From positions 2,909,962 to 2,973,961 of the forward strand of contig NZ_CP125669.1 in NCBI RefSeq assembly GCF_030053775.1: a stretch of 64,000 nucleotides of DNA. The letters run 5' to 3'. This document shows positions 15,322 through 21,666 of the stretch, piece after piece (positions within the stretch are counted from its first letter, which is position 1; each line of letters begins with the position of its first letter). The DNA comes from Acinetobacter corruptisaponis (lineage in GTDB: Bacteria > Pseudomonadota > Gammaproteobacteria > Pseudomonadales > Moraxellaceae). A program made the position numbers and the translations under genes. A model generated the notes under the pieces. That model had not been told where the DNA came from, ran no database searches, and saw nothing but the letters and a program-made list of their open reading frames with translations.

Positions 15322-16338
15322 TCAGGATTGATGTTCTTTTATGTAGTCTTCAGTACGTTGCATGGCTGCCTGAATATTCTGAATGGCATTTTCAATATCG
15401 GCGATAGTTTTGGCATTGCCACCACTGAGCGCCTGACGCCATTTACGTGCGCCTGGCAAGTTCTGAAATAATCCGAGAATATGACGTGTGATAATTGAAA
15501 GGGGGGCTCCCTCAGCTACTCGCTGGTGAATATACGGCATCATCTGTTGTATGATGTCAAAACGATTCGGTGCTTCTAAATTCCACAATTGACCCAGTTC
15601 AGCCAATAAGTAAGGATTATGGTAGGCTTCGCGGCCAATCATCACCCCATCAACATGCTGTAAATGTTGTTGTGTTTCATCAAAGGTTTTAATGCCGCCA
15701 TTAATTTCAATGGTGAGGTGAGGGCGTTCCTGCTTGAGAAGATAGACATCTTCATAGCGCAGAGGCGGCACTTCACGGTTCTCTTTTGGAGAAAGGCCCT
15801 GCAAAATGGCAATCCGTGCATGTACAATGAAGTGAGTGCAACCCGTTGCTGCAACAGTATCAACGAAATGCAGCATTTCTTCATAAGACTGCATATCATC
15901 AATCCCGATCCGATGTTTCACGGTAACAGGAATCGACACTGCTTTTTGCATGCTATGAATACATTCAGCCACCAAGTCTGGTTCAGCCATTAAACATGCA
16001 CCAATCTTGTTGTTCTGAACACGGTCACTTGGGCAGCCGACATTTAAGTTGACTTCATTGTAGCCCCAATCCTCAGCCATTTTAGTACAGGTTGCCAGTT
16101 CCTGCGGATTGGAACCACCGAGCTGCAACACAATTGGATGTTCTTCCTTGTTGAAGTCCAGATGGCGGTTGGCACCACCATAAATGATCGCGCCTGTTGT
16201 GACCATTTCGGTATAAAGCACCACATTTGGATTAAATAGGCGGGCAAAAAAACGGTAGTCTTTGGTTGTCCAATCCATCATGGGTGCAACACTGATGCGA
16301 GGTTCTTTCGTGCTTTCAATGGTTTTGTTGATATTCAT
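15322..16338 (-). CDS. dusA: tRNA-dihydrouridine(20/20a) synthase DusA, with element-supplied 5' end
   Basis: DusA reduces U20/U20a in tRNA with FMN and NADPH. The product (338 residues from the ATG at 16338) shows VAPMMDWT, the catalytic cysteine C102 in NVGCPSDRVQ, KHRIGID, and INGGIKT plus GREAYHNP for FMN phosphate binding. The extreme N-terminus (MNINKTIESTKEP) comes from an integrated element. The displaced native version (MQSLESLKPRISVAPMMDWT) survives at the far end of the element at 34,443-34,503. ATGs at 16347 and 16338 are both possible starts. The new gene should be functional because the reading frame and conserved core are restored. Confidence 0.93.
   Translation of the reverse strand: MNINKTIESTKEPRISVAPMMDWTTKDYRFFARLFNPNVVLYTEMVTTGAIIYGGANRHLDFNKEEHPIVLQLGGSNPQELATCTKMAEDWGYNEVNLNVGCPSDRVQNNKIGACLMAEPDLVAECIHSMQKAVSIPVTVKHRIGIDDMQSYEEMLHFVDTVAATGCTHFIVHARIAILQGLSPKENREVPPLRYEDVYLLKQERPHLTIEINGGIKTFDETQQHLQHVDGVMIGREAYHNPYLLAELGQLWNLEAPNRFDIIQQMMPYIHQRVAEGAPLSIITRHILGLFQNLPGARKWRQALSGGNAKTIADIENAIQNIQAAMQRTEDYIKEHQS
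16266..16281. repeat. Left attachment site (attL)
   Basis: TTGTCCAATCCATCAT lies inside the codons for the conserved MMDWT motif of dusA. It is repeated exactly at 34,443-34,458. After a short mismatch the similarity continues (GGGTGCAAC here, CGGCGCAAC there), consistent with an attachment core within a conserved gene. Confidence 0.88.
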
Positions 16339-16390
16339 ATTAAAAAACATACCTTTACAGTGTTGCATATTTTGGACTATTTCGATTTTT

Positions 16391-16472
16391 TACGCCTCAT
16401 TTCGCACCATTATTTTTGAAATTTACGCCAAATTACGCCATTATGGTCTTGGAAAAGAGATAAGGCGTAAAT
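16391..16472. repeat. TTACGCC repeats near attL, candidate integrase arm sites
   Basis: The heptamer TACGCC(T/A) occurs at about 16391, 16424 and 16434 in one orientation, and inverted as AAGGCGTAA at about 16462. All lie between attL and the integrase start. The same motif recurs beside attR. Their position and repetition suit arm-type binding sites of the integrase or an excisionase. Confidence 0.45.
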
Positions 16473-16473
16473 T

Positions 16474-17616
16474 ATGGGAACAATTTCACAACGCAAATTG
16501 GCGGATGGAACAATACGTTTTCGTGCTGAAATTAGAATAAGCCGTAAAGGCCTTGCAAATTTCAAAGAGAGTAAAACGTTTAGTTCAATGCGACTTGCCC
16601 AAAAATGGTTAGCAATGCGTGAAGAGGAAATCGAAGAAAATCCAGAGATTTTATTAGGCAGATCGGATGTGACCAACATCACTTTAGCCAATGCCATAGA
16701 GAAATATCTTGATGAAGTTGGCAATGAATATGGTCGTACCAAAACCTACTGTCTTCGTCTAATTCAGAAATTTCCAATAGCGCAGCATATTATCACAAAA
16801 ATAAAACCAGCAGATATTTCTGATCATGTTGCTTTACGCAAGAATGGGTATGACAAACTGGATTTAAAGCCAATTGCAACGAGTACTTTGCAACATGAGC
16901 TGTTGCATATCCGTGGTGTATTGTCCCATGCCTCAGTCATGTGGGACGTGAATGTAGATTTGGCTGGTTTTGATAAGGCTACAGCTCAATTAAGGAAAAC
17001 CAGACAAATTTCCTCCAGTGGCAAGCGCGACAGATTGCCGACCACGGTGGAGTTAAAAAAACTGACAGAATACTTTTATCGAAAATGGCAGAACCCTGTA
17101 TATAGTTATCCCATGCACTTGATCATGTGGTTTGCTATATTTTCATGCCGACGTGAGGCGGAAATCACAGAGATGCTTCTGGCTGATCATGATGTGGATA
17201 ATGAAGTTTGGAAAGTTAGAGACCTGAAGAATCCCAAGGGCTCCAAAGGAAATCATAAAGAGTTTAATGTCCTTGAACCATGTCAAAAGATGATTGAGCT
17301 TTTGCAGCGTAAAGACGTCAGGAAACGTATGCTTAAAAGGGGATACGATAAGGACTTATTGATACCACTTAGCCCTAGAACCATAGGGGGCGAGTTTAGG
17401 AATGCCTGTAAATTACTGGGTATTGAAGATTTACGATTTCACGATTTAAGGCACGAGGGATGTACACGTCTTGCAGAACAGGGCTTTACCATTCCCCAGA
17501 TTCAGCAGGTAAGCTTGCATGATTCGTGGGGAAGTTTGGAAAGGTATGTTTCTGTGAAAAAAAGAAAAAAGACGATAGAGCTAGCAGAAGTGTTGCCTCT
17601 CATTGGTGAAGATTAA
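16474..17616 (+). CDS. int: Tyrosine recombinase/integrase of the dusA-targeting type
   Basis: 380 residues. The N-terminal arm-binding region is basic, the core-binding domain spans about 65-170, and the catalytic domain about 185-370. The catalytic residues are visible: R227 in SCRREAE, H323 and R326 in FHDLRHE, H349 in SLHDSW, and nucleophile Y358 in ERYVSV. The family integrates by strand exchange through a 3'-phosphotyrosine. Its gene abuts attL in dusA with no other gene between, which supports it as the element's own integrase. The ATG is preceded by AAAGAGATAAGG. Its end is 57 bp from an IS. Confidence 0.92.
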   Translation: MGTISQRKLADGTIRFRAEIRISRKGLANFKESKTFSSMRLAQKWLAMREEEIEENPEILLGRSDVTNITLANAIEKYLDEVGNEYGRTKTYCLRLIQKFPIAQHIITKIKPADISDHVALRKNGYDKLDLKPIATSTLQHELLHIRGVLSHASVMWDVNVDLAGFDKATAQLRKTRQISSSGKRDRLPTTVELKKLTEYFYRKWQNPVYSYPMHLIMWFAIFSCRREAEITEMLLADHDVDNEVWKVRDLKNPKGSKGNHKEFNVLEPCQKMIELLQRKDVRKRMLKRGYDKDLLIPLSPRTIGGEFRNACKLLGIEDLRFHDLRHEGCTRLAEQGFTIPQIQQVSLHDSWGSLERYVSVKKRKKTIELAEVLPLIGED

Positions 17617-17744: not shown

Positions 17745-18038
17745 ATGGCTAAACGCTTTAGTCCAGAATTTAAACAACAAGCAATTGATTATGCACTTTC
17801 AAACTCGCACGAATCTGTGGCTGCTATCGCCCAGAAATTAGGTGTGGGTTATTCAACATTAGATAAATGGATTCGTGAGACCAACCCCACTGGTTCCAGC
17901 AAAAGACAGCTCTCGCCAGAACAACAGCGTATTCTCGATTTAGAAAAAGAAGTCAAACAACTCAGGGAAGCTAATGATATTTTAAAAAAGGCGCATGTGT
18001 ACTTCCTGACAGATCATGCCAAGAAAAGTACACGGTAA
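17745..18038 (+). CDS. IS3-family transposase OrfA
   Basis: 97 residues. An N-terminal helix-turn-helix (KRFSPEFKQQAIDYAL, then VAAIAQKLGVGYSTLDKWI) binds the IS ends. A leucine-zipper-like coiled coil follows (ILDLEKEVKQLREANDILKKA). A -1 slippery heptamer A AAA AAG at 17984-17990 is in phase. From it the -1 frame runs open into orfB, so most active transposase would be an OrfAB fusion. GGAGATGTAAAA precedes the ATG. Confidence 0.9.
   Translation: MAKRFSPEFKQQAIDYALSNSHESVAAIAQKLGVGYSTLDKWIRETNPTGSSKRQLSPEQQRILDLEKEVKQLREANDILKKAHVYFLTDHAKKSTR
17984..17990 (+). promoter_or_regulatory. Programmed -1 frameshift site (A AAA AAG)
   Basis: The OrfA codons at 17985 (AAA) and 17988 (AAG) are preceded by A. 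The -1 frame is free of stops from here into orfB at 18053. This is the standard arrangement for producing OrfAB in IS3-family elements. Confidence 0.8.
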
Positions 18039-18052
18039 TCCAAGGCCTAGCT

Positions 18053-18904
18053 GTGACTGAAATTACGGTTTCTTCTGCCTGTAAATGCCTAGGTGTCAGC
18101 ACTTCGGGCTACTATGCTTGGCGAAAGAGACAGACTTACGTCAATCAGAAGTACACTGATTTAAAAGCTGTATATTGGCAACACCATGCTCGCTTAGGAG
18201 CACCTTCATTGGTGCACGACATGCATGATTTAGGTTACTGCATGAGTGAACGTACAGTTGGAAGGATGCTGAAAAAGCTCAGTTTACGCAGCAAGATTGC
18301 ACGTAAATATAAGCATACGACTGATTCAAATCATCGTTTGCCGACGGCACCGAATTTATTAGATCGCCAGTTTACAGTCACTCTGCCAAATAAAGTTTGG
18401 ACAACAGACATCACCTATATCCGAACCAAAGAAGGTTGGCTGTATTTATGTGTGATGCTAGATTTATTTAGTCGTCGTATTATAGGTTGGCAAACCAGCC
18501 ATCGGATAGATCGTCAATTGGTATATGATGCATTTAATTATGCAATGGCACGTCAGGGATATCCAACAGGTGTCATGGTGCATTCGGACCAAGGCTCACA
18601 GTACTGTAGTCGTGATTTTAGAGCACTATTATTGGCGAATCACTGTATTCAAAGCATGTCACGTAGGGGGAATTGTTGGGATAATGCGGTGACTGAAAGC
18701 TTCTTTCATACATTGAAAGGTCATGTGATACATGGCAGTGTATTTGCCACTCGAAAAGAAGCCAATGCTATCTTGTTTGAATATATTGAAGTTTACTACA
18801 ATCGAATCAGACGACATTCTGCAAACGGCTGGTTAAGTCCTGAAGCCTTTGAACATAAATATTTTAAGAATTTAGAGGGATATGCTGTCCACGATACTGT
18901 CTAG
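18053..18904 (+). CDS. IS3-family transposase OrfB (DDE integrase domain)
   Basis: 283 residues, or the C-terminal part of OrfAB. An HTH_21-like segment (GYYAWRKRQ) is followed by an rve-type integrase core. The catalytic triad is D119 (WTTDITY), D179 (HSDQGSQY) and E215 (DNAVTESFF). The Y-R-shaped tail (YYNRIRRHSANGWLSPEAFE) is typical. The apparent start is GTG. The triad is intact and there is no internal stop, so the IS is potentially active. Confidence 0.9.
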   Translation: MTEITVSSACKCLGVSTSGYYAWRKRQTYVNQKYTDLKAVYWQHHARLGAPSLVHDMHDLGYCMSERTVGRMLKKLSLRSKIARKYKHTTDSNHRLPTAPNLLDRQFTVTLPNKVWTTDITYIRTKEGWLYLCVMLDLFSRRIIGWQTSHRIDRQLVYDAFNYAMARQGYPTGVMVHSDQGSQYCSRDFRALLLANHCIQSMSRRGNCWDNAVTESFFHTLKGHVIHGSVFATRKEANAILFEYIEVYYNRIRRHSANGWLSPEAFEHKYFKNLEGYAVHDTV

Positions 18905-18909
18905 GATCA

Positions 18910-19232
18910 AACAGATGGTAGGCATATTCATCCATATCCTTTAACTTTTGCTCATTTAAACCTTTGTCACCCTCCCTCAGCATTGCATTTAGGTCGCCAC
19001 TGTAAATGTAATAGCGTAAGGGATCATCTTTAGGAATGACTTGCCACTGTTTGCTGATCGCTACAAAAGCATTGCAGTTCACATTTTCATAACAACGTCT
19101 GACTTGGGGAGCAGAAGATGGATCATTGATCAGTGCCATCACTTGATTCATATCCGCATGACTTAAACTGGCAAACGACATGCAGCCTGCCACAGCAGTG
19201 TATTGCAGCAATGTCTTGATTGAATGATTCAT
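18910..19232 (-). pseudogene. Small secreted protein, 3' end cut off by the IS
   Basis: The native part codes for about 107 residues. It has a signal peptide (MNHSIKTLLQYTAVAGCMSFASLSHA, cleavage after SHA), then a mature part with CYENVNCNAFVAISKQWQVIPK. The frame continues into the IS to 18864, adding about 15 foreign residues. It is a paralogue of the gene at 19252-19674, sharing signal peptide, SAP-V-RC, NVNCNAF and WQVIPK. Compared with that paralogue, about 30 C-terminal residues are lost and are not found beyond the IS. It is likely a pseudogene, though a secreted truncated product is possible. Function unknown. Confidence 0.65.
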
Positions 19233-19251: not shown

Positions 19252-19674
19252 TTATTTCTGACTACGATCAATATAATGAAGCACGGCTAAACCTTTCACA
19301 AAAATCAGAAAGTCAGCATCATTACGGGCTTTTTCTTTAAAGGTAAAAGCACCTGCTTCCAGAATTTGGTAGGCACGATCTTTCTGCGGTGGAGCAAAGT
19401 CACGGTTTAGACCATCACCGTCATTGTCTTCAATAAAACTTCTCAGGGTATAACCATCCAGTTTGTAGTTCTTGGGAATCACTTGCCATTCTTTAGACAG
19501 GGCAAAAAAAGCGTTGCAGTTGACGTTGCCTTTACAACGGGTCACTTTAGGTGCACTGGCGGGATTGTTATAGAACTGGGTCATGCTTTTTGCATCGGCA
19601 TGGCTGAGGCTGGTGAAAGACATGCAGGCAGCAACAGCACTGCATTGTAGAAACGCTTTGATTCGATTGTTCAT
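19252..19674 (-). CDS. Small secreted protein of unknown function, paralogue of the truncated neighbour
   Basis: 140 residues from the ATG at 19674 (the open frame extends to 19806 without a signal-like start). The signal peptide MNNRIKAFLQCSAVAACMSF ends at SLSHAD. The mature protein has two closely spaced cysteines (CKGNVNC) that could form a disulfide, then FFALSKEWQVIPK and a helical C-terminus. I do not recognise the family. The periplasmic or secreted location is supported by the signal. Its cysteine loop is shared with the IS-cut paralogue. It is only 19 bp upstream of the paralogue on the same strand, so the two probably formed one operon. Confidence 0.6.
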   Translation of the reverse strand: MNNRIKAFLQCSAVAACMSFTSLSHADAKSMTQFYNNPASAPKVTRCKGNVNCNAFFALSKEWQVIPKNYKLDGYTLRSFIEDNDGDGLNRDFAPPQKDRAYQILEAGAFTFKEKARNDADFLIFVKGLAVLHYIDRSQK

Positions 19675-19993
19675 TAAATTGTGATCCTGATTATTGTTGT
19701 TTATTACTTTTTTAGAAGGCACAGAACAAACTGATTTGCAGAATTTAGGCACAGCAACGCAGCAATGACTGAACATCATTGAAAGGGCAATGCAAACCTG
19801 ATTCACATCAAAAAAGCTGTGCTGATATCGATTTAGTCTGTCAGATGAGCAACGTTATAAGGCAACGTGCCATGACAGATAGGCAAGGGCGGGGAATGCT
19901 TAGAAATATAAAAAACAGTCATGATTGACTCCTTAGGTATTTAAGAAGTTCTACCGCATTACTGTCAAATAATGGTGGCAGAACGAAAAGGGG

Positions 19994-20142
19994 TTGACAG
20001 ACTGAACCTAAGAATCAGCACACCCGAAGGTGTCCCCCTCCCGTTCTACCGCAGAGGGAGCACGAGTACTCACACCAAAAGATGGGATCTTTTAGTGTAC
20101 TTAGGATACGGTCTGTCAAAACCGACTGACGATGTAGGTCAG
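19994..20142 (+). ncRNA. Multi-helix structured RNA upstream of the DUF932 module
   Basis: At least five helices can be drawn by hand. An outer stem pairs 19994-20004 with 20109-20119, and an inner closing stem CCTAAG (20007-20012) pairs with CTTAGG (20100-20105). Inside are three hairpins: ACACC-CGAA-GGTGT (20020-20033), CTCCC/GGGAG (20038-20060), and a long hairpin 20072-20098 with an AAAAGAT-GGG-ATCTTTT core. A sixth helix, CTGAC/GTCAG, follows at 20126-20142. The orientation is chosen because the next gene downstream on the plus strand is about 200 bp away. It may be a cis-regulatory leader or a separate ncRNA. I cannot assign it to a known family. Confidence 0.6.
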
Positions 20143-20260
20143 CAAGCCCATCATAATCATAACGATTTCATAGGTCAATTCGATTTGTCCTGCTGTTTTG
20201 TACAACTCAGTAAAAAATGAACAGGCATACGATTCCAAATTATTTCAAATACATATTACT

Positions 20261-20324
20261 GAAATGAAGCAACGCCAAGAGGCATCAAAATGATGTCTAC
20301 AGCAGCGTTTTAAACACTCATTTC
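20261..20324 (+). promoter_or_regulatory. Nested hairpin leader ahead of the small glycine-rich gene
   Basis: GAAATGA (20261-20267) pairs with TCATTTC (20318-20324), AACGC (20271-20275) with GCGTT (20305-20309). Within these, a 7-bp hairpin forms from 20281-20287 and 20291-20297. The structure ends about 20 bases before the ATG at 20345, so it would lie in the 5' untranslated leader. Confidence 0.4.
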
Positions 20325-20344
20325 TTAAATGTTGGAGAAATTCC

Positions 20345-20578
20345 ATGTCGTATTTGGATACAGAAGAAGAATCGTATAGCCCTCGCTTTCGAGAACCCCA
20401 ACCCCTGCAACTCAGCCTTGCCAGCGCACCGACGACATTGGCAATGCTGGGCATGAACCTCGCCAAGTCGATGGGCTTTTCACCAATGCTTGGTGGTGTG
20501 GCAGGCGCAGCTTTGGGTGGTGTGATTCTGGTATTAGCAGATCAAACCCGATCTAGCATCAGCACACATAAATACTGA
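20345..20578 (+). CDS. Small glycine-rich protein with a hydrophobic segment
   Basis: 77 residues. The N-terminal half is polar and acidic (YLDTEEESYSPRFREP). The C-terminal half is hydrophobic and glycine-rich (GFSPMLGGVAGAALGGVILVLAD) and could cross or insert into a membrane, or be a phage-type small protein. TTGGAGAAATTCC gives a good ribosome site. It leads the plus-strand recombination module, 38 bp before the DUF932 gene. Function unknown. Confidence 0.55.
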   Translation: MSYLDTEEESYSPRFREPQPLQLSLASAPTTLAMLGMNLAKSMGFSPMLGGVAGAALGGVILVLADQTRSSISTHKY

Positions 20579-20616
20579 ACAAGACATCATTCAAATCAGA
20601 ATAAAGGACACATCTT

Positions 20617-21666
20617 ATGGCACATTTAGTTGAAACAATGGCATTCGTTGGACAAACTCCGTGGCATGGGCTCGGTAATCAACTTACACCTAATCAACCA
20701 CTGGAAGTCTGGGCAGAGCAGGCAGGCATGGATTGGCGGATTGAATCCTCCGATGTCAGCTACATGGCACAAAACCATCGAGGACAAAACATCATTATGC
20801 CCTTTGAAGAACAACGGGTACTTTACCGCTCAGACACCCATGCACCGTTATCGGTAGTGAGCCAGCGCTTTCAGGAAGTCCAGCCGAGGGAAATATTACA
20901 TTTCTATCGTGACCTGACCGAGCAATCAGGCTTTGAACTGGAAACAGCAGGGGTACTTAAAGGCGGTAAGAAATTCTGGGCACTGGCACGGACAGGGCAA
21001 AGCGCAGCCTTAAAAGGAAAAGATGTCAGTAATGGCTATATTCTTTTAGCAACCGCTTGTGATGGCACATTGGCAACGACAGCCCAGTTCACCAGTATCC
21101 GAGTAGTGTGTAACAACACTTTGGCAATCGCTTTACGTGGACAGCAAGGTAATTCAGGTGTGGTCAAGGTTCCACACAGTACCCGATTCGATGCGGAACG
21201 GGTCAAACGGCAACTGGGGATTTCAGTTCGTGCATGGGATGAACACATGTATGAAATGAAGCAGCTTAGTCAGCGCAAGGTGACGCAGCAGGAAGCGGCA
21301 GCTTACTTTGATGCGGTATTTAACAATACCAATCTCAGTATGGCGGAACAGGATGAAAGTATTATTCAGTACTACCGCAATTCAGCCATGCCGAATCAAA
21401 TAAACCCATCCAAAGCCGACAATAAAACTGAACCGAATGGACGAGCAATGTCAAAAGTCATGACCATGTTTAACGGACATGGACGTGGGGCAGAACTGAG
21501 TTCCGCTAAAGATACGGCGTATGGTTTGCTATGCAGCATCACCGAGTTTTGTGACCATGAACGTCGAGCCATGAGTATCGACCATCGACTAGATTCAGCT
21601 TGGTTTGGTGCAGGTGCAGCCATTAAACAACGAGGTGTGGAACAGGCATTAAGAATGGTGTCTTAA
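20617..21666 (+). CDS. DUF932 domain-containing phage/plasmid-like protein
   Basis: 349 residues. The protein matches the DUF932 (TIGR03299, phage/plasmid-like) pattern: VGQTPWHGLGN near the N-terminus, YRSDTHAPLSVVSQRFQEVQPREIL, GGKKFWALARTG, and FTSIRVVCNNTLAIAL in the centre. The family occurs on plasmids, phages and integrative elements, usually near single-strand annealing or exonuclease genes; the biochemical function is unsettled. AAAGGACACATCTT precedes the ATG. A strong terminator follows, separating it from the YqaJ gene. Confidence 0.8.
   Translation: MAHLVETMAFVGQTPWHGLGNQLTPNQPLEVWAEQAGMDWRIESSDVSYMAQNHRGQNIIMPFEEQRVLYRSDTHAPLSVVSQRFQEVQPREILHFYRDLTEQSGFELETAGVLKGGKKFWALARTGQSAALKGKDVSNGYILLATACDGTLATTAQFTSIRVVCNNTLAIALRGQQGNSGVVKVPHSTRFDAERVKRQLGISVRAWDEHMYEMKQLSQRKVTQQEAAAYFDAVFNNTNLSMAEQDESIIQYYRNSAMPNQINPSKADNKTEPNGRAMSKVMTMFNGHGRGAELSSAKDTAYGLLCSITEFCDHERRAMSIDHRLDSAWFGAGAAIKQRGVEQALRMVS

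Follow-up and report, generated by a model that had tools for sequence, protein, structure and literature searches.

The structured element at positions 19994-20142 of the window (the whole 64-kb stretch of DNA that was analyzed) very probably represents a C4-type antisense RNA cassette, which a mobile island encodes on its minus strand and which would keep a downstream small-protein operon switched off through a block at a leader open reading frame (ORF). The original prediction had placed an elaborate structured RNA on the plus strand: the element is structured, conserved, covarying and located on a mobile island, but the strand was wrong, as indicated by Rfam matches confined to the minus strand and by an excess of G-U pairs in the P1 stem. 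With the strand and identity of this striking fold settled, a vague claim regarding a leader RNA becomes a testable circuit.

Strand and identity of the fold

Folding of the plus strand between positions 19980 and 20160 reproduced, at the same coordinates, every element that had been described by hand (the outer and inner helices, the multiloop, the CGAA, GC and AAAAGAT-ATCTTTT hairpins, and the flanking 5-bp helix), with an energy of -55.4 kcal/mol (z -3.08) that was equalled by none of 200 dinucleotide shuffles. The minus strand between 19960 and 20130 was folded to -64.4 kcal/mol (z -4.81 versus shuffles), and this fold includes the three-stem C4 form. An Infernal/Rfam search, which had been named as a check and proved to be the right test, identified the C4 antisense RNA (RF01695) on the minus strand at 20056-19971, with a score of 64.1 bits (gathering threshold 45, E 4.1e-10) and with the model matched in full (1-87), this being the sole above-threshold Rfam match of the whole 64-kb window. 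When all 4227 Rfam models were used in a permissive scan of 19600-20650, nothing besides C4 and c4-a1b1 (RF03163; minus strand, 20156-20105, 20.9 bits, under its gathering threshold of 46.7) was retrieved up to E 5, and the plus strand was without any match up to that value. The radC motif, whose model we take to be among those scanned, had been put forward for comparison and found no counterpart here. The c4-a1b1 element is known as the target that lies upstream of C4; genome-wide, its model produced three matches, none of which was above threshold or at the window locus.

Assignment of the strand also relies on the pairs themselves. In an alignment (named A1) of 18 cassettes linked to the 140-aa protein family introduced below, the main stem P1 contains 57 G-U versus three A-C cells when read on the minus strand; since these G-U cells would represent A-C mismatches on the plus strand, the RNA is a minus-strand RNA. 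The corresponding unit is wider than 19994-20142, as it begins with the promoter-like site (20178) and ends with the leader ORF (19833), and the features of this locus are as follows:

20150..20178, minus strand: promoter-like sequence TTGACC-17-TATGAT for the C4 transcript, matching 10/12 of the consensus
20126..20143, minus strand: leader hairpin GCTGAC-CTACATC-GTCAG, identical to the flanking 5-bp helix; paired in 100% of cells across the 18 cassettes
20111..20119, minus strand: a1 target TTGACAGAC, one arm of the described outer helix; perfect complement of a'
20100..20105, minus strand: b1 target CCTAAG, one arm of the described inner helix; perfect complement of b'
20072..20098, minus strand: leader stem ACACTAAAAGAT-CCC-ATCTTTTGGTGT in the interval from b1 to C4, obtained by folding; across the 18 cassettes, its two parts show pairing in 79.5% and 75.2% of cells
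19971..20056, minus strand: C4 antisense RNA with stems P1, P2 (UUCG loop) and P3; Rfam RF01695
20050-20048, minus strand: RNase P-type GGT motif in C4, recognized from sequence only
20006..20014, minus strand: C4 recognition loop b' (TTCTTAGGT), with complementarity to both b1 and b2
19994..20002, minus strand: a' recognition segment GTCTGTCAA of C4, the other arm of the described outer helix; complementary to a1 and a2
19962..19968, minus strand: a2 target TTGACAG, 3' of C4; complementary to a'
19948..19955, minus strand: GGTAGAAC, which repeats the 5' strand of C4 and is able to pair with the 3' strand of C4 (19977-19984), with a2 in the loop
19929..19938, minus strand: b2 target ACCTAAGGAG, overlapping the Shine-Dalgarno sequence of the leader ORF; supported by b':b2 covariation
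19833..19922, minus strand: leader ORF of 29 codons (MTVFYISKHSPPLPICHGTLPYNVAHLTD) with its ATG at 19922, after an AGGAG
19252..19674, minus strand: gene for a 140-aa protein, likely regulated in view of its C4 linkage; N-terminus signal-peptide-like by eye
18864..19232, minus strand: paralogue of the 140-aa protein, its 3' end inside an IS3-type transposon (alignment and match) and overlapping the transposase ORF 18053-18904

The helices of the plus strand are the complement of the minus-strand RNA plus its target copies: the outer helix is formed by a1 with a', the inner helix by b1 with b', and the CGAA hairpin is the complement of the UUCG hairpin of C4.

Two sigma-70-like sites, both on the minus strand, are present between 19600 and 20700, compared to an average of 2.3 in shuffled sequences, so that the window site is not significant when taken alone and provides weak evidence on strand, as does the lack of any sigma-70-like site on the plus strand of this interval. 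Among 116 non-redundant C4 loci, 95 carry a promoter-like site (at least 9/12) located 70-180 nt upstream of C4, versus 12% in mononucleotide-shuffled sequences.

Covariation, and pairing of each C4 with its own targets

Covariance analysis over homologues, which had likewise been proposed as a check, was performed on the 18 cassettes of alignment A1, in which the C4 and leader stems were found to be paired in 93.5% of cells, with a covariation of 0.221 versus 0.135 in shuffled alignments (0/500, a count which is not a probability since the cassette sequences are related). Pairing reached 99.0, 98.9 and 100% of cells for P1, P2 and P3, respectively, each stem showing double changes, and compensatory changes were also observed in the leader hairpin (one double-changed pair, being A-U in 11 and G-C in seven cassettes) and in the leader stem at 20072..20098 (four double-changed pairs). 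When C4 was folded alone by energy, a two-hairpin form was obtained in 110/116 loci.

For the interaction of C4 with a2 and b2, 97.6% of cells were paired, with a covariation of 0.507 versus 0.171 (0/500 shuffles) and with double changes at seven of 14 pairs, while slid controls were paired in at most 50.8% of cells; a':a2 was paired in 100% of cells, with two double-changed pairs, and b':b2 in 95.2%, with five of seven pairs double-changed. The interaction of C4 with a1 and b1 was paired in 83.3% of cells overall, comprising 99.4% for a1:a' (two double-changed pairs) and 59.3% for b1:b', the latter value being low with fixed columns because the lengths of b1 and b' differ between loci. The GGTAGAAC repeat and the C4 3' strand were paired in 100% of cells, two pairs being double-changed in five sequences, and a repeat of this type with at least six matching bases was retrieved at 108 of 154 distinct C4 loci in eight genomes (63% for cognate versus 15% for swapped combinations). 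This pairing was seen by eye also in C4s without a2 and b2. As an alternative to P1, it could, as a guess, separate messenger and antisense forms. Counts of double-changed pairs were not above those of shuffles (27/500 for the stems, 486/500 for a1b1, 142/500 for a2b2 and 359/500 for the tail), and the same applied to counts of pair types in the four covariation tests; therefore, a large share of the covariation score is due to a few changes passed on by descent. Slid controls, in which relatedness is kept, were paired in at most 53% of cells for stems, a1b1 and a2b2.

The b' loop varies among loci, with the targets varying to match. In order to compare loops, 122 C4 loci were reduced to 116 non-redundant loci, 115 of which were parsed (c15 of the window's own genome was dropped, and c13 of this genome was mis-parsed), yielding 49 distinct b' loops for which the mean cognate pairing exceeded all 10000 permutations, for b' and for a', and in both flanks. 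When the targets of all genomes were compared, the cognate one was the single best for only 12 of the 49 loops upstream and 16 downstream with regard to b', and for only four upstream and one downstream with regard to a', because resembling loops are found in more than one genome. When ranked inside one genome, the own target was the best in 117/143 upstream and 40/50 downstream cases with targets, compared to 6.9 and 2.5 expected by chance, these ranks being based on C4s for which a and b each match over at least six bases, so that cognate pairs are favored; for the C4 of the window, the own target ranked best in its genome both upstream and downstream.

Retention of the targets was assessed in eight genomes (chosen as C4-rich, plus the window's own), where one of 166 C4s was left unparsed and at least c06 of the window's own genome was mis-parsed. 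Matches of at least six bases were found in 92% (a1), 87% (b1), 39% (a2) and 34% (b2) of the 165 parsed C4s, versus 36, 13, 16 and 13% in a mismatched-locus control, and consequently many relatives cannot use the downstream route. The upstream a1 b1 match is kept by 143 of the 166 C4s, targets on both sides by 47, and a1 b1 alone by 77; the first two values argue for self-control and element immunity rather than for control of host genes, the latter action having been suggested for A. baumannii C4-like sRNAs. In the 4.15-Mb genome of the window, the joint motif TTGACAG-N5..30-CCTAAG occurs five times, corresponding to a1b1, a2b2, the segment of C4 itself (on the plus strand) and two sites elsewhere, and its reversed control occurs twice.

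Within the eight genomes, 13 parsed pairs of C4s share the same b', 12 of them with a different a', and one further pair (in genome G061), which was unparsed in the loop parsing, has an identical core with both loops in common. Within-genome uniqueness of loops was rejected as a proof of exclusion: as about one quarter of random pairs are estimated from a' counts to share a', and as orthology is a confounding factor, it is only suggestive. The notion that orphan or tandem C4s act as weapons against other elements was also discarded, since for 17 C4s of the eight genomes without a local b target the matches to downstream targets elsewhere were no better than those of shuffled loops. Tandem arrangements were observed on two occasions, with three C4s head to tail at a spacing of 83-86 nt on contig 1 of G061 (255601-255856; L153, L143 and L141) and a like tandem of three on contig 1 of genome G059 (3346721-3346976; L181, L174 and L171), both followed by a normal cassette approximately 325 nt past the start of the third C4; four of these six C4s are without a b complement of six bases in their flanks. 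Contig 1 of the window's own genome contains two close C4 pairs with differing recognition loops (3070156-3070505 and 2061211-2061487), the first member of each being without a local b target according to the script.

The linked small-protein operon, the island and the spread of C4

An ORF of 25-37 codons, located after an AGGAG and starting 46-50 nt past C4, is present at 17/17 loci (16 plus the window). The C-over-G richness of the leader ORF (1.71) is not unusual, as it is reached by 10% of random 90-nt windows; Rho action would predict such richness, and this ratio therefore provides no support for it.

Homologues of the 140-aa protein were retrieved from 21 of 175 genomes of the genus, at 26 places in total, the window included. 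A C4 precedes the homologue on the same strand at 23 of these 26 places (again including the window), or at 20 of 23 after merging of places sharing one C4. A second homologue search, with longer flanks and in largely the same genomes, produced 26 loci, 24 of which were scanned (L228 and L231 being omitted for size); C4 was detected at 16 of the 24, that is at 16/17 Acinetobacter loci versus 0/7 others (five Psychrobacter and two metagenome bins). The protein family linked to this C4 type is undescribed: neither downstream protein had a Pfam match up to E 0.01 or a PHROG match up to E 0.1, and for the 140-aa protein nothing was obtained below E 2.4 versus the PDB by Foldseek or above Z 3.1 by VIA-align, a PDB sequence search returned a single, unconvincing match (E 0.24), and no relative was confirmed among viral contigs. 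The structural model of this protein is helical with a mean pLDDT of 81.8, residues 1-26 being below 50 and the mature part being confident; this protein and its paralogue are probably secreted. The last residues of the paralogue ORF (18864-19232) are unlike those of its relatives, and an IS3-type transposase pair (17745-18904) overlaps its end, so that the ORF looks cut by the insertion.

The DUF932 gene is divergent from C4 at 16/16 C4-bearing Acinetobacter loci; among these loci, orf77 was not found in L221, and YqaJ and Gp3-like genes were not found in L216. C4 thus sits amid two operons with targets on one side only, and the divergent DUF932 module is not the C4 target. Five Psychrobacter loci (L220, L223, L224, L226 and L230) carry the protein family and the DUF932 module in another order and with no above-threshold C4. 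Within the window, a gene that resembles dusA by eye adjoins a phage-type integrase gene (Pfam) at 15322-17616, and the island may consequently be inserted at dusA.

The genome of the window contains 15 C4s above threshold, and three fully scored C4-rich genomes contain 25, 22 and 20. C4 is present in at least 145/175 Acinetobacter genomes, at least 18 of the 175 carrying 15 or more, and in at least 44/293 genomes of an evenly drawn sample of the order, in which a second family also reaches at least 13-14 C4s per genome; these are lower bounds, as at most 23 candidates per genome were scored in the genus survey and 14 in the order survey. The C4 of the window is ordinary as a family member, and it is the pattern of loops and targets that is of interest.

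Alternative readings, the proposed circuit and its meaning

The original prediction had envisaged a plus-strand leader RNA acting in cis on the orf77-DUF932-YqaJ recombination module. This is very improbable: the plus-strand fold does beat its shuffles and DUF932 adjoins C4 divergently throughout the C4-bearing Acinetobacter loci, but substitutions in the stem agree with pairing on the minus strand, the loops change together with a Shine-Dalgarno sequence of that strand, and the plus strand has no Rfam match up to E 5 and (as weak evidence) no sigma-70-like site. That conservation would reflect a coding constraint on the plus-strand frame 19972-20220, which had been named as a possible refutation, can practically be dismissed; this ORF measures 82 codons in the window, but 13-78 codons in the 15 linked homologues that share its ATG; of 116 loci, 84 have this ATG, and their frames measure 4-89 codons. 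In addition, the length of the b' loop varies and the stems show compensatory changes.

The remaining readings accept a C4 RNA and differ in its target. Domestication as a host regulator, with unlinked host mRNAs as the main targets, is improbable. PMC5320573 proposes this role for the Group 1 sRNAs of A. baumannii on the basis of variable a' and b' loops, and many C4s of the eight genomes are without a2 and b2; however, the window C4 retains perfect cis targets on both sides, and the joint a-b motif elsewhere in the genome equals the reversed control (two and two). Transcription termination at a1 b1 as the main activity, rather than a translation block at b2, is a more serious contender but still unlikely. 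Such is the mode of the P4 CI RNA on seqA, as far as described in PMC4825925, and it would be in line with the better retention of a1 and b1 than of a2 and b2; against it, covariation in the linked family is no less strict for a2 and b2 than for a1 and b1, and b2 lies on the Shine-Dalgarno sequence. Translational self-repression, which would also confer immunity of a resident island against its relatives, is the most likely reading.

In P1, a short ORF precedes the controlled gene, and blocked translation of this ORF silences the genes behind it via Rho-dependent polarity. In the proposed circuit, a single promoter would drive a transcript comprising the leader hairpin, a1 b1, the leader stem, C4, a2 b2, the leader ORF and the genes for small, presumably secreted proteins, from which RNase P probably frees C4 by cutting at the GGT (20050). 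C4 would then pair through a' with a2 and through b' with b2 on the Shine-Dalgarno sequence of the leader ORF, such that its translation would be blocked and the untranslated message probably lost by polarity, leaving the downstream genes off. Pairing of C4 with a1 b1 may, like that of P4 CI RNA on seqA, attenuate the transcript and also restrict C4. The idea of action in trans, raised in the original prediction, is kept here for a C4 antisense RNA on a mobile island: acting in trans, C4 of a resident island would silence an incoming island bearing the same loops. By analogy with P1/P7, as described in PMC12197685 and PMC5320573, C4 should cover the ribosome site of the leader ORF.

The cassette resembles the P1/P7 C4 (RF01695) in its covariance-model match, three stems, a'/b' loops, GGT motif, and downstream a2 b2 with b2 on the ribosome site, and differs in that its downstream genes encode small, probably secreted proteins and no recognized antirepressor, and in that the c4-a1b1 model reaches it only below threshold. 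C4 RNAs of Acinetobacter have already been published (PMC5320573), that account covering 21 Group 1 sRNAs of the C4 family in A. baumannii AB5075 with RNase P-like processing by RNA-seq, an upstream Region 1 called possibly auxiliary, and targets leaning to host mRNAs. Genus, RNA family and a GGW processing site are shared with the window C4, and the Group 1 upstream stem-loop has a loop CACAUU or CUACAUU (consensus CUACAUU), compared by eye to CUACAUC in the window; unlike the window C4, which is flanked by cognate targets, Group 1 sRNAs have no linked targets described in the available parts of PMC5320573. The P4 CI RNA is a processed RNA between complementary sites up- and downstream (seqA and seqC), a likeness by description, and it differs in working by premature termination (PMC4825925). 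IsrK of Gifsy-1, also likened by description, is a prophage RNA controlling the short ORF orf45 coupled to anrP, where it activates while C4 is expected to repress (PMC12197685). Titles and abstracts in the literature, with subscription journals thinly covered, included none on cognate C4 targets in Acinetobacter (the term occurs in PMC9810633, PMC6978653 and PMC6186949). What is new is the retention of the upstream target by most C4s of the eight genomes, the own target, where targets exist, usually being the best within its genome, and the undescribed protein family tied to this C4 type.

In P1 and P7, specificity is set mainly by a'. As a tentative and rather doubtful extension, the 15-25 C4s of a C4-rich Acinetobacter genome might constitute largely orthogonal identity tags (few a' types by many b' types, each with its own targets), whose immunity groups would decide which islands are co-resident, with b' as the main key; at the present locus, the tag might time a burst of small secreted proteins when the island enters a naive cell, perhaps excluding rivals. 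Such natural orthogonal antisense pairs would offer a way to ask how islands share or exclude one another per cell.
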